A stretch of 43,056 bases of DNA from a virus: positions 1 through 43,056 of the IMG/VR virus record IMGVR_UViG_3300020411_004383; one strand, 5' to 3'. Each line of letters begins with the position of its first letter. Positions within the stretch are counted from its first letter, which is position 1. Shown piece by piece: positions 1-33,528 of this stretch. The position numbers and the translations under genes were made by a program. The notes beneath the pieces are model-generated. The model was not told the DNA's origin. It did not search any database and saw nothing but the letters and a program-made list of their open reading frames with translations.

Positions 1-29
1 CTTCTTAGTTGTCTTTTAGTGATTTTCAT
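1..29 (-). CDS. 5' end of a third tandem tagged small protein (cut by window edge)
   Basis: An ATG at 29-27 opens a frame that reads MKITKRQLR before the window ends. Its first nine residues equal those of the gene at 237-485. The ATG overlaps the stop codon of the gene at 26-235 in an ATGA arrangement, the usual sign of translational coupling in this window. It is therefore very likely the start of another member of the same small-protein family carrying the basic N-terminal helix. Nothing can be said about the rest of the protein. Confidence 0.7.
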
Positions 30-235
30 CTTACAATCATTCCTTTTAAGTTTCTCATGGCATATCCCATCGCCTCTTCAAACTCTGCAAACTCCTGCGC
101 TGACATCCCTTCCCCACCATTGTCGACAAATACTTGGCGAAGGTGGTCGTATAGAAGACTTTCGTCTAATTGGACGTCTGGCGCGTCGACCTGTTCTCTA
201 ATAATTCGCCTTAATTGTGATTTTGATAATTTCAT
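26..235 (-). CDS. Small tagged protein, paralogue of its neighbour, function unknown
   Basis: This 69-aa protein opens with MKLSKSQLRRIIREQ, a basic amphipathic helix ending in R-E-Q. The same type of N-terminus is found in several other proteins of the window. Residues about 27-69 resemble the C-terminal part of the gene at 237-485 (EGMSAQEFAEFEEAM against EAMTPPEFSSFEKAM), so the two are tandem duplicates. Start: ATG one base after the neighbour's stop. I infer a small virion-internal or prohead-core protein by analogy with T4 internal proteins. The family itself is not recognised and no catalytic motif is visible. Confidence 0.75.
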   Translation of the reverse strand: MKLSKSQLRRIIREQVDAPDVQLDESLLYDHLRQVFVDNGGEGMSAQEFAEFEEAMGYAMRNLKGMIVR

Positions 236-236
236 T

Positions 237-485
237 TTAGGCCACCATTTCCCTGCGCATGCGCGCGATGGCGCCGGCCATTGCCTTTTCGAAAGATGAA
301 AACTCCGGGGGTGTCATTGCTTCAATACCTCTTTCATCAAGCAAATATTGCAATTCTTCGAGAAGAAAATCATTGTCGAATAATAGATCACTTTGCGTAT
401 CTTCGTAGTCATCATACTGTTCAGCCAGAACTTTGGCTTTCTCTTCTTTGATGATTCTTCTAAGTTGTCGTTTTGTGATTTTCAT
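237..485 (-). CDS. Small tagged protein with L-x-E-Q site, function unknown
   Basis: This 82-aa protein begins with MKITKRQLRRIIKEEKAK followed by VLAEQ, an L-x-E-Q site at residues 20-23. An acidic stretch YDDYEDTQSD comes next, then a helical C-terminal half that is paralogous to the gene at 26-235. The layout of a basic helix, a cleavage-like site and a small body is that of a T4-type internal protein with a capsid-targeting sequence. That role is an inference. The ATG at 485 has only a weak AAAGAG-type ribosome binding site. Confidence 0.75.
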   Translation of the reverse strand: MKITKRQLRRIIKEEKAKVLAEQYDDYEDTQSDLLFDNDFLLEELQYLLDERGIEAMTPPEFSSFEKAMAGAIARMRREMVA

Positions 486-507
486 GGTTAAAAATTTTCT
501 CTTTATA

Positions 508-2136
508 TCAGCTCTTTGGAACTGGCATAGTTTTAATTAGGTTGTTCCTCTTGTAATGCATCGTATAAAGGGCCTGGAGCACTCTCTTGGCCACTTTTTC
601 CACGGCATCAGAGAAGTCCTTGTCTTTGTCTCCGGCTTTGAAGCGTCGATTTATCTCATCATCGACGAACTTGTTTACTTTGCCCTTGTTGCCGAAGAAA
701 CTGGTGCCCAATGCTTTGTCCAGTTCTGAATCTAGCACACTTTTTGCCTGCTTTTTGGCGATTCTCTTGATCTCGGCTTTGTCGGTCTTGGTGAGCTCTT
801 CTAGTAGAAGTGCTTCACGAATGAGCAAACGAATATCTCTTTCTATGCTCTCATTTGTCGCTGTATTCTTAGGTTTAAGCACCAGTCTTCCCCCTTGAGT
901 TATCGACACTGTCGTTAGGTCAGGAAATACCCAAAAGCTGAATCCAGTAGAAGTAAATCCCTTTTCCTTTTTGACTTTATCAACTGTCCATAGCCCGCGG
1001 ACATAATCATCACCGATAACCTGCGTGTTTTTTGCTAAATCATCCCAAAATTCGTCTGTGCTTAGTTTTTGGAGTTCTCCCATTCCGGAATCTATTGCCT
1101 GCCAGACATCTTTTAGTGCATCAACTACGTTATTGACGAATTGAATTTCTTCGTCAAGTTCCGCTTTGTCAGATTCAGTAGGGACACCTGATCCTGCCTG
1201 CCGAGCTGACATTCTTCGACTAACATCAGCTGCCCAAGTAATCGTATCGAACTTAAACTCGGTATCATCATCAGTATCTGTGGGTGTGCCTTCATCTGAA
1301 GTTACTGTTACGAGATTCGGTACGCCTCCAACAGTGTCGCCTCTCCCTCTTTCTTGGCGCGCCTCTTCTTCAGGAGACATCATCACGACTGTCTTCAAAA
1401 GGTTAGCAATTTCCTCAAGACCAGGCAAGAAAGGACCTCTAATATTTTCAACAGTTCCCGCGGCCAATTCTAGACCCATCATATTCTCGTATCGCTTTTT
1501 ACCTGAGCCGCTGAATGGTGTTTCAAAAAATTCTATCATTGTGCGCAGAGCTCTCCCCAACATGTTCTTTTGGGGATTTCCAATAAATTTTAATGTCTTT
1601 TCATTAATAGCACCCTTTTCATCACTATATTTGCGGACAATACTCTTTCGATAAGCTTCACCCACTTTTTTAAGTGCGTCCAAGGGAGGTGACATAGCAA
1701 CTTCTACAGCCTTTGCCTGGCCTAATCGAGCTATCTTACCACCTTCAGGGGCTTGAGTCTTTGCTTCGTATTTTCCTGGCTGAAGTGCTACACCGTTGAG
1801 TGATGCTGCTGTTCCATCTAGATAGATATCATGATCTTTTCCGCCCCCCACCTGTGACCAATTCCCCGGGGCCACAATCTTTAGAGCAGCAATAATAGCA
1901 TATTCACCGTTGGCATTAGTAGAATCAGGGCCTGCATCTATTACAGCTTGTATTTTTTCTCTATCTTCGCCCTGAGCGTTTGGCAAGACTTCTGCCCAGC
2001 TAATTTTTCCAATGGACGCTGGGCTGCCTAGATCAGATTCTTCTTTGTCTACAGAAATCTGTGTTGCAGATTCATCTTGCTCTAACAGCAAAGCTTCCCG
2101 AATCAGCTTGCGCAGTTTTTGCTCGTTCATCTTCAT
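508..2136 (-). CDS. Tagged two-module protein, possible PD-(D/E)xK-like core, with a second internal tag
   Basis: This 542-aa protein begins MKMNEQKLRKLIREALLLEQ, the tag-plus-LLEQ signature. A second copy, ERDIRLLIREALLLEE, lies at about residues 432-447. It is followed by a roughly 95-aa lysine-rich helical module that looks like a complete small tagged protein fused to the C-terminus. Within the first module, D103/D107 followed by KYEAK (E124, K126) could be a PD-(D/E)xK nuclease motif, but this is weak. The start overlaps the stop of the gene at 2133 by ATGA. The protein is probably virion cargo; its activity is unknown. Confidence 0.8.
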   Translation of the reverse strand: MKMNEQKLRKLIREALLLEQDESATQISVDKEESDLGSPASIGKISWAEVLPNAQGEDREKIQAVIDAGPDSTNANGEYAIIAALKIVAPGNWSQVGGGKDHDIYLDGTAASLNGVALQPGKYEAKTQAPEGGKIARLGQAKAVEVAMSPPLDALKKVGEAYRKSIVRKYSDEKGAINEKTLKFIGNPQKNMLGRALRTMIEFFETPFSGSGKKRYENMMGLELAAGTVENIRGPFLPGLEEIANLLKTVVMMSPEEEARQERGRGDTVGGVPNLVTVTSDEGTPTDTDDDTEFKFDTITWAADVSRRMSARQAGSGVPTESDKAELDEEIQFVNNVVDALKDVWQAIDSGMGELQKLSTDEFWDDLAKNTQVIGDDYVRGLWTVDKVKKEKGFTSTGFSFWVFPDLTTVSITQGGRLVLKPKNTATNESIERDIRLLIREALLLEELTKTDKAEIKRIAKKQAKSVLDSELDKALGTSFFGNKGKVNKFVDDEINRRFKAGDKDKDFSDAVEKVAKRVLQALYTMHYKRNNLIKTMPVPKS

Positions 2137-3425
2137 CCTACTAAAAATGCCCTTACATAACTACGCAGTAGCGACTCATTTTGACCCGTCGGAATGCGCT
2201 TTGCTCGACCGATGATCTGATTTAGCGGCGCGAAGGCTCCGGTAAGCTTGTACAGTGCTTTGCTTCCGGGAGGCTCTTCAAACACAATGCCTTCCAGACT
2301 AGAAGCGATATTAGATGGATCGCCTAGCTTTTCCAGTTGCTGTTCTAGCATGGCGCGACGTGTGTCTGCATCAGCATCTCGAGCTGACATGATGGCCTGC
2401 TGTGCAGCTTCCAACTCCGCCTTGAGGCGGTCCAACTCTTCGTCGTGACCTGCTGTGAGCGCTGATGCGACTCCTCTCAGCACTTCTACTGCCATATCAT
2501 GAATGGCTAGCTCAACCGGTTTCAGTACAGCAGCGATCGCTTTGGACGCATTGGCCTTGGTGCCTAATGCACTGATTCTCTTCTGCACATCTTTTCCCAC
2601 GCCGCGCTTGATATCGTTTAGTGGAGGCAGAGATTTCGGATCTTGACGCTGGCCAAACCCAATAATGCGCTTGATTAGCGCTTCTTGCTTGTGTACTGGA
2701 ATGGGAAGGTTGCCCACAACTCCTGTGCGCAGCTTTTCTTCCACATAATCACCCAGGGTCATTCCGTCAGACACACCTAGGGCACTGATCTTCTCTGAAA
2801 AGACTTCGTTCACGTCTGTGTGACTGATATCCTTCAATTGGATCACTTGTGGTCCTACGACTGACCATGTCGCTTGGTCGTCTGCGGTTTGTGCGGCATC
2901 CACAGCTTGCAACAACTGGTTAAACTCTCCACCCTGCAGCTGTACATCTACCAATTCGCCGGCGGTGTCGAACTCCTGCAAATTGTGCATAACAATGTAG
3001 TCACCGTTGTAATTAATGACGTTCGGATTGCCTGTGTAGATGATTTCAGCATTGACGTATCGCTGCCCACCCTCAGTTTGAGGTGTGAAGATCTGTTTCG
3101 CGGTTTGCGGGCCGATCTGAGATAGCGCACCTTGGATGGCCTCGAACCCGTTCATAAAAGCGCCTTCAGCGGGGTGGCCGGCCCACTTAGCAGTAAACTG
3201 CTCAGGGGACATGCCGCCCTTTACGAGGTTGCCTTTGTTTCGAGCTGTTCGAACCTCTCCAGTATCCGGATCGACTGTCCACTTGAAGAAGATGTTTTGG
3301 CCGTCAACTTTCTCGACAACTGGCATCTCGCCAGTAGATACTCGACCCAGAATGGATTTGAGGTCGCCGAAAGTAAAGTCCAAGTTTTCTTGAAGGTGTG
3401 CTAAATGTCCGGCGACTCCGCCCAT
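2133..3425 (-). CDS. KxDG nucleotidyltransferase-like (ligase-fold) phage protein
   Basis: This 430-aa protein begins MGGVAGHLAHLQENLDFTF, a beginning I recall from a widespread but uncharacterised phage family (probably DUF6267). VEKVDGQN (residues about 35-42) fits motif I (KxDG) of covalent nucleotidyltransferases such as DNA/RNA ligases. RTARNKGN follows it, and near the C-terminus SLEGIVFE with ALYKLTG resembles motifs IV and V. I infer an adenylylating ligase-like or decayed enzyme. The start at 3425 is preferred over an ATG 21 bases upstream because AAAGGAG lies seven bases before it. The gene reads as more GC-rich than its neighbours. It shows no tag helix of its own. Confidence 0.7.
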   Translation of the reverse strand: MGGVAGHLAHLQENLDFTFGDLKSILGRVSTGEMPVVEKVDGQNIFFKWTVDPDTGEVRTARNKGNLVKGGMSPEQFTAKWAGHPAEGAFMNGFEAIQGALSQIGPQTAKQIFTPQTEGGQRYVNAEIIYTGNPNVINYNGDYIVMHNLQEFDTAGELVDVQLQGGEFNQLLQAVDAAQTADDQATWSVVGPQVIQLKDISHTDVNEVFSEKISALGVSDGMTLGDYVEEKLRTGVVGNLPIPVHKQEALIKRIIGFGQRQDPKSLPPLNDIKRGVGKDVQKRISALGTKANASKAIAAVLKPVELAIHDMAVEVLRGVASALTAGHDEELDRLKAELEAAQQAIMSARDADADTRRAMLEQQLEKLGDPSNIASSLEGIVFEEPPGSKALYKLTGAFAPLNQIIGRAKRIPTGQNESLLRSYVRAFLVG

Positions 3426-3485
3426 GTGTGTTCTCCTTTGAGGCAAGTATGTGCATATTATAACACAAAATCACCTACTCATACA

Positions 3486-5159
3486 CTAATCTGTGAGTAA
3501 TCCGGCCAACTTTCGCCAACGCTCCATAATAAGTCCGTCTTCTGAGTTTTCAGTTCTTACTGACTCTTTTTTGGCGGTAGCTAAATCATCAGACTTAGCA
3601 GTCGGGTTTGTCTCTTTAGCAAACAGCTTTTTAGAATACGTGTTGGCACCAAACTCTGATCCACCAGATCGTGCAGAGCCAGGAGGTGCGTAATCTTTAA
3701 GATATGAAAGAAGATTCTGGCCGCTAATTCCAAAGCCCATATCGTTCAGTGCATTTATGAGTTTTTGTTTCTCCTTAGAGTTTATCTTTTCAGGTATAAA
3801 ACCGTCTTCAAACCCCTCATTGTCACCTAATTTTGCCTTTTTAACGGCCTTTTTTTCCATGCCGGCATATTGCTGAGCATCTGCCTGACTTCCGCCCTCT
3901 ACAAATTCATCGCAGCCTTCAATTGAAAAGTATCCCGTTCCATCCCCAAATGGTTGACAAATAGCAGCACCAACGTGGCGACCGTCGGAGGCCGTCTCTT
4001 CATCTGGATTAAAAGCATCTGGTGGCGCGAAAACGTAGATCGAATCAAAACCTGAAGACTGCATCTTTTCAACAGCCGGCCCCGGATCTGTTACGTTAAC
4101 CTTATTACCATCTACATCAACTTCGGGTGCATTGTCGTAAATTCTATCGACTTCTGCTTGAGCCACTCGGCGGCCACCTTGATCAAATGCCTTTCTGTGA
4201 AGATTTGCAATTTTTGTTCGATCGGCTGGCTGGTAGATGTACGCGCCCACGACGCTTACATTCGGGTACTTTTCTTTTAGCTTGCCCATCGCTTCAATTC
4301 TACTTAAATTTGCAGAACTCTCACCAGACTGATCAGCAAGATAGACGTTCGCAGCCGTTTCTGTTGCTTCTCCACTCAAGAATCCTTCAAGATCCTTCTC
4401 TACATCTTCTAAGAATTTTTCTGAAGCGTACCACCTAAACCCTAAGGTCATGTTTGGATTATCGGACACACCAGTAAAATCATTTAATTCGAATCCGTCA
4501 ACTTCTTTTGACCACCCTCTGGCCTGTGCAAACCACGATTGAGTCTCGGGATGATTAGTAAAAGCGTCAGCGGCTTGTGCTGGGTCCCCTTTGGCATCGC
4601 GCATAAGATTGACATATGTGTTCCAACTCAGAAGGTCTGAGAGATTACTTTGCGTGCCATTTTCATTAACGTGAAAATGCTCAGCAGCTTCTGCTTCAAA
4701 CGCACCCTGATCTCCTGTCACATCTCCGGAAGCTTCATCCCACTCTCCGCCGGCGGCTTTGTGTACCATAGCGAACACTTTTGGGGGAAGAGAGCTAGTG
4801 GTTGCATCAGTCATCGCCTTGTCTTCTTCTTGATAGAACTGAGAATATTTTTCCGGATCAGTCTTTTTCATTGACTTTAGGAAATCCTTGAAATTCTTCT
4901 CGCCCTCCTTCGTCTCTTTTCCGGCGAGGTCAGTGGCCATCTTTTTCGCGGCACCTTTTCCAGCGGCTGGAGGGCCGTAAAGCACAAGAATTGTCTTATT
5001 CTCAACCTCTTGCTCTTTTGCATCTTCTATGCTCGCAGGAGCTTCTTGTTCGAACAGCAAGTTTACAAGTCTAGATGTAGACTTGGGTTTTGGACTGTGC
5101 ATTTCACTTAACAGAAGACTTCTTAACTGCCTTCGAGTCATTCTTACCTTTTTAGACAT
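3486..5159 (-). CDS. Tagged P-loop (zeta-toxin/kinase-like) protein, putative virion cargo
   Basis: This 557-aa protein starts with VRMTRRQLRSLLLSE (residues 5-19) and then NLLFEQEA (33-40), a tag followed by an L-x-E-Q site. ILVLYGPPAAGKG (57-69) is a Walker A motif of the kinase/zeta-toxin type. Later GAYIYQPADRTKIANLHRKA recalls the nucleotide-kinase region of such proteins. The last residues MERWRKLAGLLTD carry an R-W-x-x-L-A-G-L end that is also found in the gene at 11695-13950. The start overlaps the previous stop by eight bases (ATGTCTAA). I infer an injected or capsid-internal phosphotransferase; the substrate is unknown. Confidence 0.75.
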   Translation of the reverse strand: MSKKVRMTRRQLRSLLLSEMHSPKPKSTSRLVNLLFEQEAPASIEDAKEQEVENKTILVLYGPPAAGKGAAKKMATDLAGKETKEGEKNFKDFLKSMKKTDPEKYSQFYQEEDKAMTDATTSSLPPKVFAMVHKAAGGEWDEASGDVTGDQGAFEAEAAEHFHVNENGTQSNLSDLLSWNTYVNLMRDAKGDPAQAADAFTNHPETQSWFAQARGWSKEVDGFELNDFTGVSDNPNMTLGFRWYASEKFLEDVEKDLEGFLSGEATETAANVYLADQSGESSANLSRIEAMGKLKEKYPNVSVVGAYIYQPADRTKIANLHRKAFDQGGRRVAQAEVDRIYDNAPEVDVDGNKVNVTDPGPAVEKMQSSGFDSIYVFAPPDAFNPDEETASDGRHVGAAICQPFGDGTGYFSIEGCDEFVEGGSQADAQQYAGMEKKAVKKAKLGDNEGFEDGFIPEKINSKEKQKLINALNDMGFGISGQNLLSYLKDYAPPGSARSGGSEFGANTYSKKLFAKETNPTAKSDDLATAKKESVRTENSEDGLIMERWRKLAGLLTD

Positions 5160-5448
5160 CTATTACCTCAAGATCATTTTCAGGTTGTAGTTTCTTTGAC
5201 TGCTTTAGTTTTCTTCTTAAGACTTTGAGCAAACCATTGTAATGCACTCTAGCATCAGTCCTAGTATTGCAAGCATCTCTATCTGCTGCAGCATCTTCTA
5301 TTCTAAACTCTAGATCTGTGATGCATTCTGGACTGTCCATTGGAACCATTTCCCCGGAAACACATCTATGCATCTCCACTGGGTTTTCTGAATGCATCAC
5401 TTCAGAAATTACTCTTCTAAGACGCCTCTTGAGTATTGCCTTTTTCAT
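5152..5448 (-). CDS. Small tagged protein with conserved cysteines, function unknown
   Basis: This 98-aa protein opens with MKKAILKRRLRRVISEVMHSENP. The basic helix and I-S-E end match the tag class, and the S-E-(V)-M-H-S stretch resembles S-E-M-H-S in the next gene at 3486-5159. The body has three cysteines (HRCVSG, ECITDLEF, RDACNTRT) and a C-terminal basic helix VLRRKLKQSKKLQ, so it is likely a small helical domain. ATGA overlap with the gene upstream indicates coupled translation. No known family is recognised. Confidence 0.7.
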   Translation of the reverse strand: MKKAILKRRLRRVISEVMHSENPVEMHRCVSGEMVPMDSPECITDLEFRIEDAAADRDACNTRTDARVHYNGLLKVLRRKLKQSKKLQPENDLEVIDV

Positions 5449-6200
5449 TCGTATCTCCGATAAGCCTCTAGAAGCTTCTTAATGTTATATTTTTTCTGCG
5501 CTTCGCCTACAACAATAGGCTGCTCTTTTGTACCTGGCCTACCAGATTTTTCTGTCGTTTCTTTGCCTTTTTTTGCAGCTTTTTTCTCTTTTGCTTTTTG
5601 ACCTCTAGCAGGATCATCTTTTACTCGAAGACCAACATCACCAGGGTCTAAAGCCTCAGTGCCTGTTGCAACTCCTGCAAGAATCTGTGACAGCCCTGTC
5701 AAAAATACCAACATTGACTCTCTTTCATCTTTCGTCAAACTTTCAAAATATTGCGAAAAAGATTTTTTAACCTCAGGGTCTTTCAGAGATCTACCACCTC
5801 GTAAAGCGTTCAATTTATCAATTACTGCCCCTACAGTTGGTTTTTCTAGTTGCTGCTGTGTCGGTGTGTCTAGCTTTGGTGAGTCTTTAGTTCCCTTGCC
5901 GCCTGTTCTATCTTCGCGAGGTTCTTTTTCAGCTTTATCTTTATCAATAGTATCAGGCACACCTGAAGGTTGCTTCTCAGGCTCTTCTTCAGATGCCTCC
6001 GCCTCTTCTTCTTCTGCTTCGTTTGTCTCTTCTTTATCGTCAGAGGCGTGTAGCCCTTTTTTCTTAACAATTGAAGCCTGTCTATCTTGTCGACGGCGTT
6101 CGTCATTATCATCAGAGAGCTGTGAATCTAGAGTTTCTCTTATTGCTTTCAGTGTTTCCCGAGCGACCAGATTTTCAAGATTATTGAGATTAATGTTCAC
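5445..6200 (-). CDS. Charged low-complexity protein, prohead-core or scaffold-like
   Basis: This 251-aa protein starts with GTG, supported by AGGAG five bases upstream and a GTGA overlap with the gene before it. The N-terminal helix NLENLVARETLKAIRETLDS precedes a long disordered, highly charged stretch (about residues 34-120, rich in E, K, D and P). A helical segment (about 125-190) and a lysine-rich C-terminus ending YNIKKLLEAYRRYE follow. The composition resembles phage prohead core or scaffold proteins such as T4 gp67/gp68, but no homology is claimed. Confidence 0.7.
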   Translation of the reverse strand: MNINLNNLENLVARETLKAIRETLDSQLSDDNDERRRQDRQASIVKKKGLHASDDKEETNEAEEEEAEASEEEPEKQPSGVPDTIDKDKAEKEPREDRTGGKGTKDSPKLDTPTQQQLEKPTVGAVIDKLNALRGGRSLKDPEVKKSFSQYFESLTKDERESMLVFLTGLSQILAGVATGTEALDPGDVGLRVKDDPARGQKAKEKKAAKKGKETTEKSGRPGTKEQPIVVGEAQKKYNIKKLLEAYRRYE

Positions 6201-6379
6201 TTCTTCTCCTGATTTCTGATAATTCTATTGTGCGGGTGTTCCCTATACCGTCTATTGAGCTCTCTTACTTGCCACTCTTCTTCCTGCCTTTCAAGCATCT
6301 CTCTTCTTTCGTTTTGCAAGCGCTCTCTTTCTTCTAGATCTTGTACAAATTTATCAAATTGAAAACTTTTTTCACTCAT
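6197..6379 (-). CDS. Small arginine/glutamate-rich coiled-coil protein
   Basis: This 60-aa protein is almost entirely charged helix: DLEERERLQNERREMLERQ is a good coiled-coil candidate and NRRYREHPHNR is a basic tail. It overlaps the preceding gene by eight bases (ATGAGTGA) and the following GTG start by four. That tight packing is the best argument that it is expressed. Its position between a putative scaffold and unknown virion-block genes suggests a structural or assembly role. Function unknown. Confidence 0.65.
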   Translation of the reverse strand: MSEKSFQFDKFVQDLEERERLQNERREMLERQEEEWQVRELNRRYREHPHNRIIRNQEKK

Positions 6380-6722
6380 CGTTACTAACTATCCTCTTCG
6401 CCGAAAAGGTTATCATAGGGCTGGTCATGTCTAAGTTACTAAATTGAAAACTTTTATCAGCTCTAAACTTTTCTTTTTCGTATAAAAATATTGTCTCTCG
6501 CTCATGTAATAAATCTACAAGAGACATACCGGGGACTTCTAAGTTAAAAGTCCATAAACTATCTTTGAACTCTGCAGTTCGAAGTGTGCAAATGTATCTT
6601 GTCTCGCCTATCATTAAAATTTGCTCAACAAATTCAGGTGTGCCTAAGTCTAGACTTAAGCCTTCACTCATTATGACACGATTGGCGTCATCTTCTGTTG
6701 TGACTATAGGATCGTTATTCAT
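6372..6722 (-). CDS. Conserved-looking phage protein, probably beta-rich
   Basis: The protein is about 116 aa from the ATG at 6722 (MNNDPIVTTEDD), which overlaps the previous stop by eight bases (ATGAATAA). An in-frame ATG at 6731 is the alternative; a TTG further upstream is less likely. Alternating hydrophobic segments such as ILMIGETRYICTLRT and LWTFNLEVPGMS suggest a small beta-sheet domain. The C-terminus (FSNLDMTSPMITFSAKRI) is also strand-like. It could be a tail, baseplate or virion accessory protein from context. No family is recognised. Confidence 0.65.
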   Translation of the reverse strand: MNNDPIVTTEDDANRVIMSEGLSLDLGTPEFVEQILMIGETRYICTLRTAEFKDSLWTFNLEVPGMSLVDLLHERETIFLYEKEKFRADKSFQFSNLDMTSPMITFSAKRIVSNDE

Positions 6723-7095
6723 TGTATCCATAGTGTAAAACGTCTTCGTATATTTGATCAACAGATGAAGTATATTCTATGTCAAGCTCTGTGATGCAAT
6801 CGATTGAGTGTGTATATACTTCGATATCAATGTGCAGGTGACTAATTGTGATCTTTGCATGATGGTTCATTTCGTCTTCTAACTCTAAGACCTCACCCAA
6901 GAAGTCTATTAGCCGAGAACGAGAAGAAAACTCAAACCTTCTCATAAACCTCTCAGGATCCGTTACTACCTTCCACTTAATAATGTCAGGCTTGATTGGC
7001 ATATTTTGCGACTCAGATAGCAAAAACCTAGGCGTGGAAGACTTAATTGGTTTTTCGTTAAAATAGTCACGCATTATGTGAGACACTTTATCCAT
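6715..7095 (-). CDS. Pterin-4a-carbinolamine dehydratase-like protein
   Basis: This 126-aa protein resembles the PCD/DCoH family, which dehydrates 4a-hydroxytetrahydropterin. It has IKWKVVTDPERFMRRFEF followed by FLGEVLELEDEMNHHAKI, and then VYTHSIDCITELD. The catalytic pattern D-x3-H-H, then T-H, then a late D is present. The Pro after HH is replaced by Ala and the usual aromatic is missing, so activity is uncertain. The start at 7095 shares one base with the previous stop (TGATG); a longer frame would run 81 bases into that gene. PCD-like genes occur in marine phages, where their role is unclear. Confidence 0.75.
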   Translation of the reverse strand: MDKVSHIMRDYFNEKPIKSSTPRFLLSESQNMPIKPDIIKWKVVTDPERFMRRFEFSSRSRLIDFLGEVLELEDEMNHHAKITISHLHIDIEVYTHSIDCITELDIEYTSSVDQIYEDVLHYGYNE

Positions 7096-8264
7096 CACGC
7101 CTCTTGAAAGTCTGCAGTTTGCTCTAGGGACTGCATTAATAAAGATTTTCTCTTTGAGGCATTCATAGACTGCCACTTATCCAAAGATTTTTGTACTAAG
7201 TCGTCGCTAGGATCACTAGCTAATTTAAGCACAGAAATAGCACTTCTAATTTTTTCCTGTACTTCTGGTATTTCATCAGACTTTATTTTTCCTGATTTGG
7301 CTAATTGCGATAATTTTTTACTTATCAAGGCTGGATCTTGCTTTGTAGCACCTGTTACTTGATTAAAAATGGTTTGATGTATTTCTTTTGGCAAGCCTAG
7401 ATCGTCTATTTCTGACTTTACTCTTTTGTTAGCTTCTCTAGCAACCTGCTTATAAGCAGGAAGAATAAACGCGCTCACAAAAAAGAATCTAAAAGAATCC
7501 ATGTCTTTTACTATGTTAGGCGCACTTCTCAAGTCTTCAATATCTTCCAAGTCGAGTAAATCAGATTTCTCCATTGCGTCAATGTACTCCCCGACGGCAA
7601 AATCAGTCAAGGCAGACAAGTCTTCTTTTTTCACCTTGGTGGCAAAATATTCCATTCTGTCTGTGAGTCTATTGATCTCTTGTCTCATTCCTGGGGCACC
7701 TGAATATCCAAACTCATCAGCAAGATCTTCTAAGCTTACAGCGTCAGAAGATGGCTGCACGATTTGTTGTGCCGGTTCTTCTCCAAAGTAATCAACTTCG
7801 GTTCCTCTATAAGTGTCAAACTCTTCTTTATCTCTTTCAGACCCCTTATATGATGATTGCTCAGAGAGAATGCCTCGCAAAGCCGCTCGAATTACCTTTC
7901 TTATCTTTTTAGACTCTTTTTTCAACTCTTTGTCCTCTTCTTTTTCATCTTTTGGCATGCCATCTCTATCAATTGATTTTTCTAAAAGCCCTTGAAGTTG
8001 CTTATAGTACCATTCAATTTCGCCTGATGGTACTTTCTCAGATATCGCAGATGCTGCCTTTTGAAGTTCCTCTAAAGAACTTGGCACAAACTCTTCGTCT
8101 TCTACGGGAGGTCTTTCAGTAGAAAGCTGTGTTGCCATTTGCTGGCTCGGATCGATCGGCACATCACTTCCTACTGTGGGTTCTTCAGTATCTTTGCCTG
8201 TGCTAGGGAGTTGATCATAAATTCCCTTTGAGCTGCTTTGTTCGTTTAATGTTTTGCGCTGCAT
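7095..8264 (-). CDS. Precursor-like protein with two L-x-E-Q-S-S sites and an internal tag helix
   Basis: This 389-aa protein holds two similar sites: T-L-N-E-Q-S-S-S-K-G at residues 5-14 and I-L-S-E-Q-S-S-Y-K-G at 132-141. The second follows a tag-like helix KKIRKVIRAALRG (119-131). Between the sites lies an acidic, likely disordered stretch. Cutting at both would release a prodomain of about 127 residues and leave a helical mature protein of about 254 residues (with FFVSAFILPAYKQVAREANK). The GAGGTG ribosome binding site before the ATG at 8264 fixes the start. Function is unknown; a virion-internal protein is inferred. Confidence 0.75.
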   Translation of the reverse strand: MQRKTLNEQSSSKGIYDQLPSTGKDTEEPTVGSDVPIDPSQQMATQLSTERPPVEDEEFVPSSLEELQKAASAISEKVPSGEIEWYYKQLQGLLEKSIDRDGMPKDEKEEDKELKKESKKIRKVIRAALRGILSEQSSYKGSERDKEEFDTYRGTEVDYFGEEPAQQIVQPSSDAVSLEDLADEFGYSGAPGMRQEINRLTDRMEYFATKVKKEDLSALTDFAVGEYIDAMEKSDLLDLEDIEDLRSAPNIVKDMDSFRFFFVSAFILPAYKQVAREANKRVKSEIDDLGLPKEIHQTIFNQVTGATKQDPALISKKLSQLAKSGKIKSDEIPEVQEKIRSAISVLKLASDPSDDLVQKSLDKWQSMNASKRKSLLMQSLEQTADFQEA

Positions 8265-8283
8265 ATTTTCACCTCGATACTAA

Positions 8284-8796
8284 CTATTTCGCTGCCTGCC
8301 CAATTGCATGAGCAGCGCCTACTGTGATTAATATTCCACCAACAACGCCCATTGCGAACCAAAATTCGCCTGACTCGTACCACGGTGTTGGTCTCCAGTT
8401 TTTTTCTAGAAATCTGATGCGTTCGTCTTTTACTTGCAACAGTGAAGTCGTTCGGGTGTTCTCAATATCTAGGCGTAATTTCAAAGCATCAATTTGACTT
8501 GTTAGCTGCAGTGTATTTATTTTTAACTCTTTAGTGAGTCTTATTTGGCATTCTCTTTCACTAAATTTTATATCAGCAAAAAGACGAGCTGCAGCGTCTT
8601 CAGAAAGAAGAATTCCTGAGAAAGGTGCATGCTGTCCTTTTCTAATTTGGCTTACTTTGCCTAAATTAATTTTGCTCACATCGACTTTAGGGGTTGCAGT
8701 GGGAGGTGTATCTCCAGCAATTGCTGCAGTCGGGGACCAAGCCAGTAGAAATACACATAGTACAGCTATTGTCTTATTCATCTTTTGCATCAACAT
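8284..8796 (-). CDS. Signal-anchored coiled-coil membrane protein, possible inner-membrane spanin
   Basis: This 170-aa protein has an N-terminal hydrophobic segment IAVLCVFLLAWSPTAAIAG that looks like a signal peptide with an AIA-G cleavage site. The conserved-looking block KGQHAPFSGILLSEDAAARL comes next. A coiled coil (about 80-130) and a C-terminal transmembrane segment FAMGVVGGILITVGAAHAIG complete it. AGGAG six bases before the ATG at 8796 fixes the start, which overlaps the preceding gene. The block and context recall Rz-like lysis-accessory proteins of marine phages, but this is tentative because no endolysin is in the window. Confidence 0.7.
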   Translation of the reverse strand: MLMQKMNKTIAVLCVFLLAWSPTAAIAGDTPPTATPKVDVSKINLGKVSQIRKGQHAPFSGILLSEDAAARLFADIKFSERECQIRLTKELKINTLQLTSQIDALKLRLDIENTRTTSLLQVKDERIRFLEKNWRPTPWYESGEFWFAMGVVGGILITVGAAHAIGQAAK

Positions 8797-9163
8797 ATTC
8801 TGCTCCTAAGTGATCAGCTATTTTTTTACCTAAGTCGCTAGAGCTGGCAGACTCGTCGATAAACTCGTCTTTTTCTTCTCTTAGGTCTTCTTCTTCTTTT
8901 TCAGCTTGATCGATTGCATCTTTAACTTTCTTGTCTTTGTCTTTTGCAATTTCTGTCAGGCCTTCGACTAGCTCATCTTTGGCTTTTTTGTTTATTTCTT
9001 TCTCTTTTGCGTGTGCTTTATTTGCTGCTTCTAAAACTTTCTTTTGCTGCCTACTTCTTATAAGTACTGAAAGCAGAGCTATAAGGGCAGCGGCGAGGCC
9101 TACCACCCACTCCCACTTTCCTTTGATCCACAGCCAGACTTTTGCCCAAAACGTCAATGCCAT
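8774..9163 (-). CDS. Single-pass membrane protein with charged coiled coil, lysis-cluster candidate
   Basis: This protein of about 129 aa starts at the ATG at 9163 (MALTFWAKVWLWIKGKWEW), two bases after the neighbour's stop with AGAGGG just upstream. An amphipathic tryptophan-rich helix precedes a transmembrane segment (WVVGLAAALIALLSVLI, about 19-35). A highly charged K/E/D coiled coil then runs to the end. The topology, a short N-terminus and one membrane span with a long soluble coil, fits a spanin or holin partner. No specific family is recognised. It overlaps the next gene by 23 bases. Confidence 0.7.
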   Translation of the reverse strand: MALTFWAKVWLWIKGKWEWVVGLAAALIALLSVLIRSRQQKKVLEAANKAHAKEKEINKKAKDELVEGLTEIAKDKDKKVKDAIDQAEKEEEDLREEKDEFIDESASSSDLGKKIADHLGAEYVDAKDE

Positions 9164-9164
9164 T

Positions 9165-9371
9165 TTACCCTCTGTCTTGCGGCCCATGTTTCCACATAAC
9201 AGCAGCATCTACCAATGCTTGAGTTCCGATGTAAGCTAAAGTCACCGCGACCCAATCGCTACTATTGACAACCCCGTTCAAGCAAAGATACGTTGCTGTT
9301 CCCCACGCTAAAAATTTTCTACTTATAAATCGCTCAACATGTTTGTCGAAAAATGCCTTTACTCTTGCCAC
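9165..9371 (-). CDS. Small membrane protein, holin-like candidate
   Basis: This 68-aa protein has two hydrophobic stretches, KFLAWGTATYLCLNGVVNS and WVAVTLAYIGTQALVDAAVM, separated by a short turn. The start is GTG with AGGAG six bases upstream. A short basic N-terminus and two spans are typical of small holins, and it is next to two further membrane coiled-coil genes. A lysis cassette (holin plus spanin-like partners) is a reasonable inference. Without an endolysin nearby this stays a candidate. Confidence 0.65.
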   Translation of the reverse strand: MARVKAFFDKHVERFISRKFLAWGTATYLCLNGVVNSSDWVAVTLAYIGTQALVDAAVMWKHGPQDRG

Positions 9372-9380
9372 TGTTTTCTC

Positions 9381-9686
9381 CTAGTTCAAATAGCCATCAT
9401 CATCATCTTTTAGTTTTTTGAGAGCTAAAATATCGCTTTCTTTTTTGACAGCTTCAGTTGCTTGCTGTAATATTGTTGTAATTGTTGTCATTTCATACGA
9501 TAAGCCTTGAGTCGCCTGCGTTATGCTAGCAACACAGCTGCTTAAGTCAGTTATGGCTTCGTTTGATTTCGCCAGTGAGGCTTCAAGTACAGCTATTTTT
9601 TCACTCATCTGGAGTATCTTTTTTTGCATCTCGATAATTTTTAGATCTTTACTTGGAAAGAGGATCGATTTCAGAAATTGCATCAT
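9381..9686 (-). CDS. Coiled-coil protein, function unknown
   Basis: The frame from the ATG at 9686 (MMQFLKSILFPS) gives about 101 aa. A GTG at 9740 and an internal ATG at 9629 are alternatives, so the start is uncertain. Residues from about 20 onward (MQKKILQMSEKIAVLEASLAK and following) form a long coiled coil, with a charged tail KKLKDDDDGYLN. It overlaps the gene upstream by 38 bases if 9686 is right. It lies in the membrane/lysis-like cluster. Confidence 0.55.
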   Translation of the reverse strand: MMQFLKSILFPSKDLKIIEMQKKILQMSEKIAVLEASLAKSNEAITDLSSCVASITQATQGLSYEMTTITTILQQATEAVKKESDILALKKLKDDDDGYLN

Positions 9687-9939
9687 AAAGGTTTTCTGCC
9701 TCTCTTTTAGATACTTTAAGTGCAGACTGTCTTTTGTCACTATAGATTGTTTCTATTATAGACATTGCTGTGGGATCGTTTTCCCCTACTAGTGATGCAA
9801 ATCTTTCAAAGACTTCCTGCATAGATAGTGAATAATCAAACAAAGACTTTCTAAACTCAGAGTGTGTTGCGCGTGTTAGATTTATGTGGACAGATTTCCT
9901 GACCTCAAAATCAATAATTCTCTTTGTAAGCTCGTCCAT
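9649..9939 (-). CDS. Ribbon-helix-helix-like protein, putative regulator
   Basis: In this 96-aa protein, KSVHINLTRATHSEFRKSLF followed by SLSMQEVFERFASLVGEN has the strand-helix-helix pattern of MetJ/Arc/CopG DNA-binding domains. The helical C-terminal half has no recognised motif. The start ATG shares its first base with the previous stop (TAATG), and GGGAG lies just upstream. A role in regulating phage or host genes is inferred from fold only. I recall similar proteins in marine phage contigs, function unknown. Confidence 0.6.
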   Translation of the reverse strand: MDELTKRIIDFEVRKSVHINLTRATHSEFRKSLFDYSLSMQEVFERFASLVGENDPTAMSIIETIYSDKRQSALKVSKREAENLYDAISEIDPLSK

Positions 9940-10637
9940 TAAGCAGCGCTCCCGCCGGCGGCGCCTGTTCCGGCGCCAACTGCGATCGGTGTTGTATCTT
10001 TTGCAGAATCCTCAGCTTCAGCTGGACTGTCCACGATATCAACGTCATGCTTTGCACTGAGCGTGTCTACTAAGTCTTGTTCAGCTTTTTCACCGTATCT
10101 TGTTGCGACGAACTCTCTTGCTTTTGAAACAAGCATTTTTTCCATGTCAAGCAACGAAGTATAGTTTTTGACAAGACGAGCAACTTCAGCCGTGAATCTG
10201 TCTAGATCAATCTCAGCCTCGTAGTCATCCTGCTCTAGGAGCATCCCCAAGTGAAGACTTTCTTCAACAGTATCAAGTGCAGTGTCGTCTATTTCCTTAC
10301 TTTTGCGTGCGTCAGTCTCAAAGTCTATAAGCAGTGCTTCGAGATCTTGATCTATAGACTTGGAAAGCTTAACTTCATCCTCGAGATCGACATCAAGCTT
10401 TTCATCTTCTTCTTCAGCTTCTTCACCTTCAGCCTCTTCGCCTTCAGCACCTTCTTCGTCTGCGCCTTCAGCACCTTCTTCGTCTGCGCCTTCGTCGCCG
10501 CCTTCAGCCTCCTCACCTTCAGTATCTTCTTCGGGCTCATCAGCGAAAAGGTCTTCTTCTTGCTCAAACAAAAGGCCTGCAAGAGAATTAGACTCATAAA
10601 ATAGTTTTCCGAGCTTTCTTCTTTTTCTACTAGACAT
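9939..10637 (-). CDS. Acidic repeat protein with two L-x-E-Q sites, prohead-core-like
   Basis: This 232-aa protein begins SSRKRRKLGKLFYESNSLAG and then LLFEQEED (22-29), the basic segment plus cleavage-like site. An extremely acidic repeat tract (about 31-86, units such as DEEGAEG) follows. A second site, MLLEQDDYE, is at 132-140, and the helical domain after it (about 145-190) ends in a glycine/alanine tail. The layout resembles a scaffold or internal protein precursor cut twice by a prohead protease. GGAG seven bases before the ATG supports the start. Function is inferred, not shown. Confidence 0.7.
   Translation of the reverse strand: MSSRKRRKLGKLFYESNSLAGLLFEQEEDLFADEPEEDTEGEEAEGGDEGADEEGAEGADEEGAEGEEAEGEEAEEEDEKLDVDLEDEVKLSKSIDQDLEALLIDFETDARKSKEIDDTALDTVEESLHLGMLLEQDDYEAEIDLDRFTAEVARLVKNYTSLLDMEKMLVSKAREFVATRYGEKAEQDLVDTLSAKHDVDIVDSPAEAEDSAKDTTPIAVGAGTGAAGGSAA
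10398..10532 (-). repeat. Acidic in-frame repeat tract (E/G/A/D units)
   Basis: Imperfect tandem units of roughly 12-21 bases encode runs such as EEAEG, DEEGAEG and ADEEGAEG within the gene at 9939-10637. The units keep the reading frame, as expected from slippage or recombination that is selected at protein level. Confidence 0.75.
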
Positions 10638-10640
10638 TGT

Positions 10641-11333
10641 TTACTCCACTGCAACCTTAGCTGCCTTTTCTGACCTCTTAAATCTGTTTTCGATTCTTTT
10701 CCAGTTTAGCTCCTTCATCATTGCCATCACATAAGCCTTTCTATCTCCGAGATAGTCTCTTGTGTAAGCGCCAGAATCAACTTCCATAACGATGACAGGG
10801 AGCACACCGATAGGCACATTTTTTGCTTCGTTGTCAATAATAAAGTTCATATACCTTTTTAGAAAAAGCGAGTATCCACATATTGCGTATCCGTCTCTAG
10901 AAGACATGCAGCATGCAATAAAATCTTTTTGCCATGCATCGAACGTCCCAAAGTCTCTTTCTAGACGAAGGAACGCTAAGGTGTCCATGGTTATTCTGCT
11001 ATCTAGATCATCAATATTTTCAAAAAACATAGCTCTAAGCCATGCAGCATTCATATTGTGTGTCTCATCTAGCTTAAGACTTCTAAAATCGCTTGATTTA
11101 TTATTTGCATTTTCGCGGTCGGCTCCATCCAATTCAGCACTTACTCTATTCAGAGAAGATACAAATGATTCGAACTCTGCATAGAGTAGCTTCTTAGCTT
11201 TTTCACTCAAAAAATCAGTTCGAAGATCAAACTTTTTAGGCTCAGCGACATAAGCTTCACCCAAGATATCGCCTAGGGAATCATTAATCGCTTCCTTTAA
11301 TTCATCAACAAGATTTTTTTTAGAATTTTTCAT
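10641..11333 (-). CDS. Superoxide-dismutase-like protein with missing metal ligands
   Basis: This 230-aa protein matches the Fe/Mn SOD fold at its C-terminal half. GYSLFLKRYMNF, then VPIGVLPVIVMEV and SGAYTRDYLGDRKAYV, then MKELNWKRIENRF parallel the SOD region DVWEHAYYLDY and its downstream NWxxVxxRF. At the ligand motif the Asp becomes E184 and the His becomes G188, so iron/manganese binding is probably lost. The N-terminal segment DILGEAYVAE has a T4-like L-G-E-A site at 24-27. GAGGTC precedes the ATG. I infer a virion or cargo protein derived from SOD. Confidence 0.7.
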   Translation of the reverse strand: MKNSKKNLVDELKEAINDSLGDILGEAYVAEPKKFDLRTDFLSEKAKKLLYAEFESFVSSLNRVSAELDGADRENANNKSSDFRSLKLDETHNMNAAWLRAMFFENIDDLDSRITMDTLAFLRLERDFGTFDAWQKDFIACCMSSRDGYAICGYSLFLKRYMNFIIDNEAKNVPIGVLPVIVMEVDSGAYTRDYLGDRKAYVMAMMKELNWKRIENRFKRSEKAAKVAVE

Positions 11334-11695
11334 TATTTGACCTCATATTCTTTTTCAAACTCAGATTGTGGCACAGCCAAAAGCTCTTCTTGATGCTTAC
11401 TCATTGCATTAGCTTCATCAGACTCAGGCTCAAAGTAAATTGAGCTTCCTTCAGGATCAACTTCATAAAGCATACTATTTTTATCTTTGCCATCTGACAG
11501 TACATCATCACCTGGAACAGGTGGCTCAAATCTAGGCTCTTCTGGCATTCTTAAAATTACAGTAAGATCTCCCTTAGGATCCTCAACTACATCTTCGACT
11601 GTGTATTCAAACTGTGACTTTTTATGTCTTACTTTCAACCCTTGCTGAACGATCACGTTACCTTGCTCGTCCTTTACATCTGTTTCGCCTAGCAT
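11333..11695 (-). CDS. Small acidic beta-type phage protein, function unknown
   Basis: In this 120-aa protein the first half (GLKVRHKKSQFEYTVEDVVE, then DLTVILRMPEEPRF) looks like a small beta barrel with an SH3- or KOW-like rhythm. The second half is acidic and proline-rich and probably disordered. The start is coupled by TAATG, with GGAGGA upstream. No catalytic motif is seen. It lies inside the virion-cargo-like block and may be a structural accessory protein. Confidence 0.65.
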   Translation of the reverse strand: MLGETDVKDEQGNVIVQQGLKVRHKKSQFEYTVEDVVEDPKGDLTVILRMPEEPRFEPPVPGDDVLSDGKDKNSMLYEVDPEGSSIYFEPESDEANAMSKHQEELLAVPQSEFEKEYEVK

Positions 11696-13950
11696 TAGTC
11701 TTCCTCCAAGCCCGCTAACCGGGTCCAGCGATGAATATCATTGTTACTAGTGACATCTTCAATAGTATCCTCTGACTCTTTTCCTAAAAGAACTTCTGTG
11801 AGTGTGCCCGCTCTGTGGACCAGATTTCTATGTAAAAGTTTTCCTCTATGCCACAGTGCTTCAGAAGAGACTGATGCAGAAGCAGACGCACTAGCAGAAG
11901 CTGAACTGCCGCTCTTTTTCTTTGGGGCTGCCTGTTTCTTTGCAGGTTTCTTGCCGCCTTTCTTTTTGGTGCGAATCCCTTGTTTTTCTTCTTCGCGGCG
12001 AACTCTTTTGCCAAAGTTTTCCCCAGTCTCACCTTCTTTAGGTTTAAGACCTACTGCCTTCCCCCTCTCTTTCATCTTTTTTGAAGGAGGGCCCGATCTA
12101 TCTCTTTTCTTGCTCGGTTCTGCTTCCTCTTCAGCAGGCGCGGCGTCGCCGCCGGTGTCGGCGCCGGCGTCGGCAGTGGCTTCTGCGGTGGCAGTGACAA
12201 CGTTAGTGATATTAACACCCTTTTCCTTTGCACGTGCCAGTGCCCTTTGAACCTCAGATTCATCTTTTGAAGCTAGAATATCTCTCAGCATTTCCATATT
12301 TTGCTTATTGGCTTCTCCTTGTTGTGCAAGAATATCCTTTAAGTCCTGTGCTGTGAGACCTGACTGCTGAATTTGCTCTGCTGCAGCGACTGTTTCTTCT
12401 TCTACCTCCACTTCAGGAAGGTCTGCAATCTGTACGTCATATTGATTCTCTAAGCGCTTGGCCAATTCAGCAGCTTTTGCAGGAAGATCTGCATCTTCAA
12501 CGCCTTGGGCTTTAAGTGCCTTAGCAACATCTTTGTAAAAGATTGCTTCAGTAAACAGTGCTTTTTTAAGTGAAGTTTTATGAACCCAAGATTGCTGCTT
12601 CACTCTTTTCGTGCTAGTTGCCTCAAATAGCCAATCTGACATGTTTCTACTATGAACCCACGCCTCTTTTTTGGTGTCATCCGCAGGTTTTTGCGCTGAG
12701 TCTTCTGGTTTACCTTCTGTGTCCTTGTTTTTCTCTGCTTCTTTTGCAGCTTTTTCAGCTTCTGCAGGATCAAAGAACACGACAGAAGACTTAGGATCAT
12801 CGTTAATAAGAGTTGCCAACCACTCACCTTCAGGGACATCCTCTGGTGTTGTCACCGTTTTCTCAAGATCTGGAATTGGCACCATCTTTTTGTCGGCCGC
12901 GGCGGAAGGTTTTTGATCAAACCCAGGGGCAACTTGTTGAATTACTTGTGGTGTCATTGGGACTGCTCCAGCCCCAGGCACATTGACTGTAGTCTGCTGT
13001 GCGGTGTCTCCTTTTCCTCCGCCCGGAGCGGTGCTAGCTACGACGCTAGTATCACCTTGCCCAAGAGCTTGTACATCTGCACCAATATCATCCATCACGG
13101 CAGTTGTTTGCTCTTTGTCTTTTTCAGCTTCAGCTTGGGCAGCTTTTATCTCTGCTGCTTTTGCAACTAATTTCGATAGAGAGGCGTTCATAATATCGTC
13201 TGCGAAATCCTCTGCCTCAAGATCGCCTTTGCCAAAAAACGACATTAATTTGCCCCAAAATTTATCCGGAGGGGGAGGTGGCTTATAGGAGTTCTCAGCA
13301 GCTTTTCTTAGTAAATCCTCGTCAGGAAACTCAAACTTCTCTAGGCCTTCGTACTCCTGCGCCATTTTTATCACATCGATAAGTGGCTCTTCTTTTACTT
13401 TTGTTACAAACTCTCCTGCTTTTACATCTTCTAAGCCGGGAATTGTCAATTGACCATTCTCATCTGCGTGGTCTTTTTCAAAATTTTTCCAAGTAGTTTC
13501 TTTTGCAAAAGGAAGCTTTTCAAGCTCTGAGCCAAAAAGCAAAACAGCATCATTAAATGAGTCACGAGCTAAGTTTAGCTTTGACGTAATGCTAGTCACT
13601 TTTCCAATTTCTTCGGCTGACTTTTTTGGATCGCCGCCACTAAAAGCCATTTTTACTAAAGAAAATGTCCCGGGGAGCTCTCCTTTAAGTTTTTCTAAAT
13701 ACTGTGCAGTATTGGTAAAGCCCATGTCTGTAGCTATAGCGATTGTGTCATCGATATCTTTTTTAGCCTCTTGGGCTATTTTCTCTAGCTTTTCAAGCTC
13801 AGTCTTTTCTAAAGCTTCTACTACAAGTGGCTTAATTGATGATTCAGACAGGCTTTCATCAATTAGGTCTGCATAGCTCAAATGTGCCATTAGTTTTCTA
13901 GAGATGTTTTCAAAAAACTCAGAATGTTCTTGAATAAATTTGTCGGTCAT
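11695..13950 (-). CDS. Large low-complexity protein with L-F-E-A sites and an RWxxLAGL C-terminus
   Basis: The protein is 751 aa. The N-terminal helical part (1-220) is followed by a polyproline stretch (224-228) and linkers. Two related segments follow, WVHSRNMSDWLFEA (431-444) and WVHKTSLKKALFTEA (455-469). A coiled-coil region, a basic K/R-rich tract and a serine/alanine repeat (683-694) come after, and the protein ends HRWTRLAGLEED. The two L-F-x-(E)-A motifs resemble T4-type processing sites. GAGGA before the ATG fixes the start. I infer an internal virion or scaffold-type precursor. Confidence 0.7.
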   Translation of the reverse strand: MTDKFIQEHSEFFENISRKLMAHLSYADLIDESLSESSIKPLVVEALEKTELEKLEKIAQEAKKDIDDTIAIATDMGFTNTAQYLEKLKGELPGTFSLVKMAFSGGDPKKSAEEIGKVTSITSKLNLARDSFNDAVLLFGSELEKLPFAKETTWKNFEKDHADENGQLTIPGLEDVKAGEFVTKVKEEPLIDVIKMAQEYEGLEKFEFPDEDLLRKAAENSYKPPPPPDKFWGKLMSFFGKGDLEAEDFADDIMNASLSKLVAKAAEIKAAQAEAEKDKEQTTAVMDDIGADVQALGQGDTSVVASTAPGGGKGDTAQQTTVNVPGAGAVPMTPQVIQQVAPGFDQKPSAAADKKMVPIPDLEKTVTTPEDVPEGEWLATLINDDPKSSVVFFDPAEAEKAAKEAEKNKDTEGKPEDSAQKPADDTKKEAWVHSRNMSDWLFEATSTKRVKQQSWVHKTSLKKALFTEAIFYKDVAKALKAQGVEDADLPAKAAELAKRLENQYDVQIADLPEVEVEEETVAAAEQIQQSGLTAQDLKDILAQQGEANKQNMEMLRDILASKDESEVQRALARAKEKGVNITNVVTATAEATADAGADTGGDAAPAEEEAEPSKKRDRSGPPSKKMKERGKAVGLKPKEGETGENFGKRVRREEEKQGIRTKKKGGKKPAKKQAAPKKKSGSSASASASASASVSSEALWHRGKLLHRNLVHRAGTLTEVLLGKESEDTIEDVTSNNDIHRWTRLAGLEED
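11869..11904 (-). repeat. Ser-Ala dipeptide repeat
   Basis: Six in-frame Ser-Ala units at residues 683-694 of the 751-aa protein form a flexible linker between the lysine-rich tract and the C-terminal tail. Confidence 0.6.
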
Positions 13951-24263: not shown

Positions 24264-24884
24264 ATGTATAGCGCAGAAGAAGACGTCATTAACTCAGCAA
24301 CTCATTTTCTATCAGCTGTGATTTCAGTGCTGGTTACACTTCTTGTTGTGTTCAACACCGGACTTCCTTTTTCAAAAACCTTCCCTATTTTTATTATGGG
24401 CTTTACATCAAGTTGGACATTTTTCTCATCTTATCTTTATCATTCTTCAAAGCAAGAACCAAAGAGAGAAAGAAATCGTATTTTAGATCGCTGTTCAATC
24501 TACACAATGATAACAGGGAACGCAGTAGGAATAGCGCTTCTTAGCTCTCTTTCTACTACTTCTATTATTTGTTGTATCATCCTAATAATAATGGGGTCTC
24601 TTTTTGTTGCAAACCTTTGTCTTAAAAAAAAGGTGTCAGAAGTATTTTCTCTTACGTCCTACCTTTTAATGGGTTGGCTAGCTGTTTTGCCTTCTTCCGG
24701 GCTCTTTTTTCCCAGTAAATTTACGGATATGCCAGAGCTTTTTTGTCTGCTAGCGGGTGGCTTATCTTATAGTCTTGGCGTTATTTTTTATACGCGAGAT
24801 AGAAAATGGGATCACGTAATATGGCATATTTTTACTATGCTTGGTTTTGGTTTTCATTTTTCCGGCGCCTATATTTGCCTTTAA
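24264..24884 (+). CDS. Hemolysin III / PAQR-family membrane protein
   Basis: This 206-aa protein has about seven transmembrane segments. The family's conserved residues are all visible: YSAEEDVINSATH at the N-terminus, SSYLYH (S56 to H60), LDRCSIY (D75), and DHVIWHIF (H184, H188) with a later His. These residues form a zinc site in PAQR receptors and HlyIII/YqfA proteins. It is the only gene on the plus strand here and converges on the dUTPase gene three bases away. A role in altering host membrane or excluding rival phages is speculation; phage-borne HlyIII is unusual. Confidence 0.85.
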   Translation: MYSAEEDVINSATHFLSAVISVLVTLLVVFNTGLPFSKTFPIFIMGFTSSWTFFSSYLYHSSKQEPKRERNRILDRCSIYTMITGNAVGIALLSSLSTTSIICCIILIIMGSLFVANLCLKKKVSEVFSLTSYLLMGWLAVLPSSGLFFPSKFTDMPELFCLLAGGLSYSLGVIFYTRDRKWDHVIWHIFTMLGFGFHFSGAYICL

Positions 24885-28011: not shown

Positions 28012-28027
28012 AAGATTTGTATAAGAA

Positions 28028-28045
28028 GCCTCACATGATTGAGGC
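28028..28045 (-). promoter_or_regulatory. Hairpin in the lipoprotein leader
   Basis: GCCTCA, six loop bases and TGAGGC form a perfect six-base-pair stem 16 bases before the ATG at 28011. The 3' arm contains the only purine-rich GAGG near the start. It may either hide the ribosome binding site or act as a weak terminator for the gene at 28095; the following sequence (TTCTTATAC) is a poor T-tract. Confidence 0.4.
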
Positions 28046-28094
28046 GAGATGCACAATAGTAAAAAACAACACTAAGTCGTATACACGAATCTGT

Positions 28095-33522: not shown

Positions 33523-33528
33523 TAACAA

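Follow-up and report, generated by a model that had tools for sequence, protein, structure and literature searches.

We identified a short, basic, amphipathic helix that opens many otherwise unrelated proteins of IMG/VR virus record IMGVR_UViG_3300020411_004383 and of related phage contigs. The window analyzed here is the whole record (43,056 bases), which is a fragment of a larger phage genome. A sequence-only reading of the window had proposed that this helix, hereafter called the tag, and an L-x-E-Q site behind it constitute a capsid-targeting and processing code analogous to that of phage T4. Genomic comparison strongly supports this proposal, and the tag is likely to mark a system of capsid targeting and processing like that of T4 but much enlarged, which acts on many unrelated proteins. 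Two details require revision. The Q is not required, and the code is not confined to N-termini, as tags and sites are also found internally and at C-termini, where a second tag (RWxxLAG) had been missed.

Relatives were collected using the RecA/UvsX-like gene of the window (39487-40749), which matched 243 IMG/VR stretches. Thirteen related records were read, of which G001 (284 kb), G003 (267 kb) and G002 (236 kb) are the longest. The closest relative, G011 (75 kb), is syntenic across the tagged region of the window. The tag was scored with a 14-column profile at a threshold of at least 12 bits over the 2160 open reading frames (ORFs) of the window and the 13 relatives, and expectations were derived from shuffles. 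This search, which the sequence-only reading had suggested, found an N-terminal tag in 149 ORFs where 1.4 are expected. The tag is thus real and far above chance. The number of tagged ORFs reaches 42 in G001, followed by 32 in G003, 16 in G002, 11 in G008, 10 in G006 and 6 in the window. Both ends of the G001 contig (108-586 and 281018-284375) are packed with tagged ORFs, which suggests a circular or permuted genome opened within a tag cluster.

The tag occurs in two types, M-K-I-T-K-R-Q-L-R-R-I-I-K-E (type A) and M-N-L-L-R-E-Y-I-R-x-L-L-x-E (type B). The mean net charge of the core is +3.2, compared with -2.4 for the 30 residues that follow. The exact degenerate type A pattern matches 85 stretches of IMG/VR contigs, several of them in records of 180-293 kb. 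A tblastn search of phages with the 23-residue tag gave no match, the query being too short. The bodies behind the tag are mostly unrelated, as had been claimed for the window. The 144 tagged bodies fall into 91 clusters, 72 of which have a single member, and the 42 tagged bodies of G001 alone form 40 clusters.

Behind the tag, [LI]xE is found at positions +8 to +20 in 86 of 146 tagged proteins compared with 34 in shuffles, and LxEQ at +8 to +30 in 18 compared with 1.7 expected. There is no enrichment of LxD, LxQ or LxK after the tag and no excess of [LI]xE at +25 to +47. The residue after the site is most commonly Q. Other residues, including S, G, A, D and E, also occur there, therefore Q is enriched after the predicted cut and optional. 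In orthologue alignments the LxE is kept while neighboring residues drift. Most tags additionally contain I-K-E, I-R-E or V-K-E within themselves.

The ORFs of the window that carry tags or sites are the following.

1-29, - strand: gene start truncated by the window edge, with tag MKITKRQLR (direct translation).
26-235, - strand: tagged ORF of 69 residues, MKLSKSQLRRIIRE with Q after the site (profile 38.2 bits).
237-485, - strand: tagged ORF of 82 residues, tag MKITKRQLRRIIKE, with MKITKRQLRRIIKEEKAKVLAE followed by Q (LAEQ; profile 44.7 bits).
508-2136, - strand: two-tag protein of 542 residues, N-terminal MKMNEQKLRKLIREALLLE followed by Q (LLEQ; profile 24.5 bits).
2133-3446, - strand: protein with an untagged N-terminus, ligase-like motifs and the C-terminal tag-like helix NESLLRSYVRAFLVG (alignment and C-terminal profile matches).
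3486-5159, - strand: cargo candidate of 557 residues with a P-loop motif, N-terminal tag RMTRRQLRSLLLSE, LLFE followed by Q at residue 37, and C-terminal tag MERWRKLAGLLTD (profile 21.4 bits).
5152-5448, - strand: tagged ORF of 98 residues, MKKAILKRRLRRVISE (profile 14.2 bits; homologues in five relatives).
7095-8264, - strand: protein of 389 residues with TLNE followed by Q at residue 8 and an internal basic helix RKVIRAALRGILSE followed by Q (weak internal score, 9.3).
9939-10637, - strand: acidic core-like protein with a basic N-terminus, LLFE/QEE, an acidic region, a second site LLE/QDD and a conserved domain (alignment of 22 sequences).
10641-11333, - strand: conserved protein of 230 residues whose N-terminal helix ends ILGE/AYV (alignment and translation).
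11695-13950, - strand: protein of 751 residues with LVVE/A at residue 45 and C-terminal tag HRWTRLAGLEED (C-terminal motif scan and alignment).
29562-30806, - strand: C45-type acyltransferase/hydrolase domain with an internal tag behind it, HRVRKIIREELRKNLKE (profile 13.2 bits).
41659-41910, - strand: tagged ORF of 83 residues, MRDLRSLVREVIKEMSLLE followed by K (profile 19.5 bits).

The sequence-only reading had assigned the tag to eight of these proteins. Only the first three genes show the literal form MK-x-(T/S)-K-x-QLRR, and the bodies of the second and third are related. The proteins at 508, 3486, 5152 and 41659 have a looser form that scores above the threshold. The true start of the 41659 ORF is probably at 41910, and its orthologues carry LRKYIR or LRKLIR tags. 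The protein at 9939 is itself below threshold, and only its orthologues match (for example MKLTKKYLKKLINEEFRLLVEQ in G003). The L-x-E-Q sequences are present as described: LAEQ at 237, LLEQ at 508, LFEQ at 3486, LSEQ at 7095, and both LFEQ and LLEQ at 9939.

Members of the 3486 family carry LLFEQ or ILFES at the predicted site. Of the 22 sequences of the 9939 family, most show a hydrophobic-x-E where the basic segment ends, and in most the conserved IDxDxFAxxxARL domain is preceded by L-x-E or something close to it. Orthologues of the 10641 protein have IEE, LSE, VNE or IKE ahead of (A/S)YV, and in six of seven members of the 11695 family a hydrophobic residue precedes an E by two or three positions. 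Most tagged proteins of the window have no Pfam or PHROGs match, and searches of isolate phages with the 3486 and 508 proteins gave no match for either. The AlphaFold model of the 3486 protein has a pLDDT (predicted local distance difference test) of only 38.8. For the 2133 protein no family match was found, its AlphaFold model is poor (61.5), and there is a weak fold match to T4 RNA ligase 2. The nucleotidyltransferase/ligase-like motifs EKVDG, EGIVFE and YKLTGAF are kept in its orthologues, and the C-terminal helix is similar in them.

The gene at 508 shows how tags, sites and domains are combined. All five orthologues open with a tag (LRKLIRE, LLRKWVQVLLME, LLREWVRRLLVE, LLRNTIRRLLEE and LLKSWIRNVILSE). 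Their middles differ, and a common C-terminal domain is preceded by a second tag and LxE, which in the window is RLLIREALLLE followed by ELTKTDK. The C-terminal domain is present at 33 IMG/VR loci, at most of which it is a protein of 81-97 residues with a tag-like helix as its own N-terminus. Examples of the standalone form are MKITKARLRTIIME followed by ELTKTD (locus L339) and MLGNKKLLRRYIESLLTE followed by ELTKTD (locus L348). In all 23 distinct sequences, [LIVM]xE lies directly at the junction of tag and domain. The standalone domain carries an A- or a B-type tag depending on the phage, and from these sequences the tag is portable and its type swappable on a constant domain. At locus L348 two adjacent genes encode the body and the domain, and both carry a separate type B tag. 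Since the domain also exists as a tagged protein by itself, the gene in the window resembles two tagged proteins fused into one. The domain itself (LTKTDKxEI...IDRIKV; loci L322-L350) is thus found as a small tagged protein across many marine phage contigs, and no match to it was found in isolate phages.

A second tag, RW..(L/M/I)AG, occurs 27 times (0.3 expected), and 24 of the occurrences lie 2-7 residues from a C-terminus. It ends ten of ten gp22-like scaffold proteins as well as members of the 3486 and 11695 families, and no other stretch of the 3486 family proteins is as well conserved. Because it is shared by the scaffold and two proteins of the window, RWxxLAG ties them to the prohead core independently of the first tag. 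The ligase-like 2133 family and others have weaker versions of the first tag at their C-termini. Among isolates, the scaffold of Flavobacterium phage immuto ends SRWQKLAGIIK and that of Microcystis phage Mel-JY01 ends with the variant ERMKKLAGIVK. Immuto also has a tagged protein (gp080) and an S77 protease, and these two phages are the nearest tag-bearing isolates. The immuto protein (NC_055915, 125626-126867; L187) is annotated as a 'DNA polymerase phi-like protein'. Its position and its C-terminus are those of a gp22-like scaffold, and the annotation is likely in error.

As the window is a fragment, the presence of a prohead protease could be tested in relatives only. The gp21-type protease gene that the sequence-only reading had suggested looking for outside the window is present in relatives. 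Peptidase_S77 was detected in 10 of 16 relatives, with T4 as a positive control. It was also detected in 12 of 14 large tag-bearing records and in 4 of 12 further, mostly smaller records. Peptidase_S78, the HK97-type prohead protease, was absent from all 16 relatives while its controls were positive, and a system of that type was rejected. The relatives carry a T4-type block of terminase, portal, Peptidase_S77 protease, small proteins, gp22-like scaffold and a capsid protein homologous to gp23. The block was read in G001, and orthologues of protease, scaffold and capsid protein are found in ten records. Two core-type proteins encoded between gp21 and the scaffold (c153 and c97) are tagged. The first reads MAKITKRMLKGIVKECLVEILSE followed by G in G001 and has a similar N-terminus in its orthologues, in ten records in all. 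The capsid propeptides keep LENQAxQxL(R/K)E, an L-x-E like that of the tag site, before a variable stretch. A, Q, R, N or T follow the site in capsid proteins. The arrangement parallels T4 gp23, which keeps ENQ and is processed downstream.

The 484-kb phage LR756508 (718 ORFs) was left out of profile building and therefore provides an independent replication. It has 30 tagged ORFs compared with 0.7 expected, and 20 of the 30 have [LI]xE compared with 7.5. Within it, 24 of the 30 tags fall in 82 kb (140-222 kb) around the head genes (p about 6e-14), with the protease at 156.5 kb, the scaffold at 170 kb and the capsid gene at 172 kb. The protease of this phage (156480-158204, a 574-residue ORF; L358) is split by a long in-frame insert, which could be an intein. 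ORFs resembling homing endonucleases, which end FDRIWDCGxxKYVW or a close variant, lie at 158244 and 173722.

The internal proteins (IPs) of T4 bind the core through N-terminal leaders of 10-19 residues, which gp21 cuts off behind L/I-x-E, and in Alt both termini are processed (PMC9026906). Nothing but the leader is common to IPs 1-3, which are injected anti-restriction proteins (PMC12373910). The system described here resembles that of IPI, IPII, IPIII and Alt in its short N-terminal leader on unrelated proteins, the L/I-x-E cut site, the gp21-type protease and the variable cargo loci (PMC9026906, PMC12373910). However, T4 has about four tagged proteins whereas tens are found here, with two tag types and with internal and C-terminal tags, and the LxE often lies 4-8 residues past the helix core, unlike in the T4 leader. 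T4 gp67 (PIP) has LIKEEKIAIARNFLIE followed by GEEPEDED, a tag-like helix, LxE and an acidic tail as in the 9939 family. The 9939 protein differs in its greater length, its second site and the conserved domain at its C-terminus, and the likeness is one of layout. In phiKZ and SPN3US, several head proteins are cut by the prohead protease after x-x-E, and the diverged paralogues gp53 and gp54 have identical N-termini (PMC5694885). Unlike the proteins described here, these have S-x-E or A-x-E sites and mostly propeptides of more than 100 residues with no common short tag. Eight processed proteins were found in SPN3US.

Following the T4 precedent, the tag helix and RWxxLAG would dock proteins onto the growing prohead core, which would contain core proteins with the same tag and the acidic gp22-like scaffold ending in RWxxLAG. 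After closure of the shell, the gp21-type protease would cut behind [L/I/V]-x-E, which would free the cargo within the head and remove the peptides, and the cargo would then be ejected along with the DNA. We infer these steps, and the roles of the cargo, from sequence. Delivery of cargo to the host is reasonably likely, and by analogy with the T4 IPs and Alt its roles are probably in host take-over or anti-defence. The clearest tagged enzymes in relatives are a CCA/poly(A) polymerase (G011) and a Zeta-toxin-like kinase (G008), and single DUF192, SET, HD and acyltransferase matches occur among the tagged proteins scanned. It is possible, although rather doubtful, that the system is open and two-ended, with exchangeable N-terminal, internal and C-terminal tags loading dozens of effectors and with some cargo (the 508 family) being a polyprotein cut at the internal tag-LxE into separate products.

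Several observations weigh against a capsid-targeting system of this kind. Tags in G001 are mostly far from gp21, no second [LI]xE is present at +8 to +20 in about 41% of tagged ORFs, and some tags are internal or C-terminal, where a simple propeptide model does not need them. The shuffle statistics ignore shared descent of the tags themselves. Moreover, the T4 capsid-targeting sequence MKTYQEFIAE scores 1.8 bits on the tag profile and ranks 10 of 158 on the type B profile. Homology to it was not significant on either profile. The tag is therefore not recognizably the T4 leader.

The tag could instead be a docking helix for another assembly (replication factory, membrane or baseplate), with L-x-E reflecting helix composition. 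Helices that are basic and amphipathic, like this one, have many binding partners, and the internal and C-terminal tags would fit such a role. We consider it improbable, as LxE is enriched and LxD, LxQ and LxK are not, and as core-type proteins encoded near gp21 bear the tag and the tagged ORFs of LR756508 are grouped around head genes. Additionally, the genes at 14-41 kb of the window, mostly for DNA metabolism, are untagged (0 of 28, compared with 5 of 20 on the left side), and none of their 159 homologues in relatives is tagged. An equally unlikely possibility is a purely structural code, in which tagged proteins are scaffold or core parts degraded in maturation rather than delivered. Two tagged families are core-type, and the 9939 family resembles gp67, which gets cut up. 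However, dozens of variable tagged ORFs per genome, enzymes included, are unexpected for a core. That the tag is the conserved remnant of one expanded gene family is very unlikely. Small tagged ORFs do form tandem clusters in G001 and G003 and a few bodies are related, such as those at 26 and 237, but the bodies are as diverse as described above, tags are found on the polymerase, the kinase and others, and the same domain follows A- or B-type tags in different phages. A nucleic-acid element, such as a translation enhancer or recombination site, would fit the 5' ends of genes and could promote module swapping, but it is hardly credible and was rejected, since the tag codons vary synonymously (Leu1 uses all six codons), and conservation is therefore at the protein level, and tags also lie inside and at the ends of ORFs.

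Other features of the window deserve mention. The protein at 29562-30806 is an instance of a C45-type autoproteolytic acyltransferase/hydrolase domain in a phage, with the internal tag behind the domain. Next to it is a four-gene block (30809-33528) that includes spermidine-synthase-like and AdoMet (S-adenosylmethionine)-decarboxylase-like genes, judged from sequence. No homologue of the block was found in the 13 relatives read, and it may represent a recent insertion or lineage-specific polyamine genes. A lone + strand gene among - strand genes (24264-24884), with a homologue in G006, encodes a multi-helix membrane protein resembling haemolysin III/PAQR proteins by eye. The gene at 26743-28056 encodes a lipoprotein-like protein with a von Willebrand A-type DVLFLVDMSASM motif. 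It has homologues in four relatives, and that in G001 adjoins type B tagged genes.

In the open-licence literature we found no paper that prints the motif or describes such tags in uncultured phages. What is new is the scale, the two tag types, the internal and C-terminal placement, the shuffling of tags and domains, and the portability of the tag. The system would represent the logic of T4 enlarged about tenfold, in marine and huge phages of which isolates are few or lacking. Searching with a profile of the tag and L-x-E would give a direct list of candidate injected proteins in unculturable phages, and the tags might serve to load foreign proteins into large heads. If the two-ended system exists, it would be the largest head-packaged effector set known to us, and the proteins injected by uncultured phages would be predictable from sequence.

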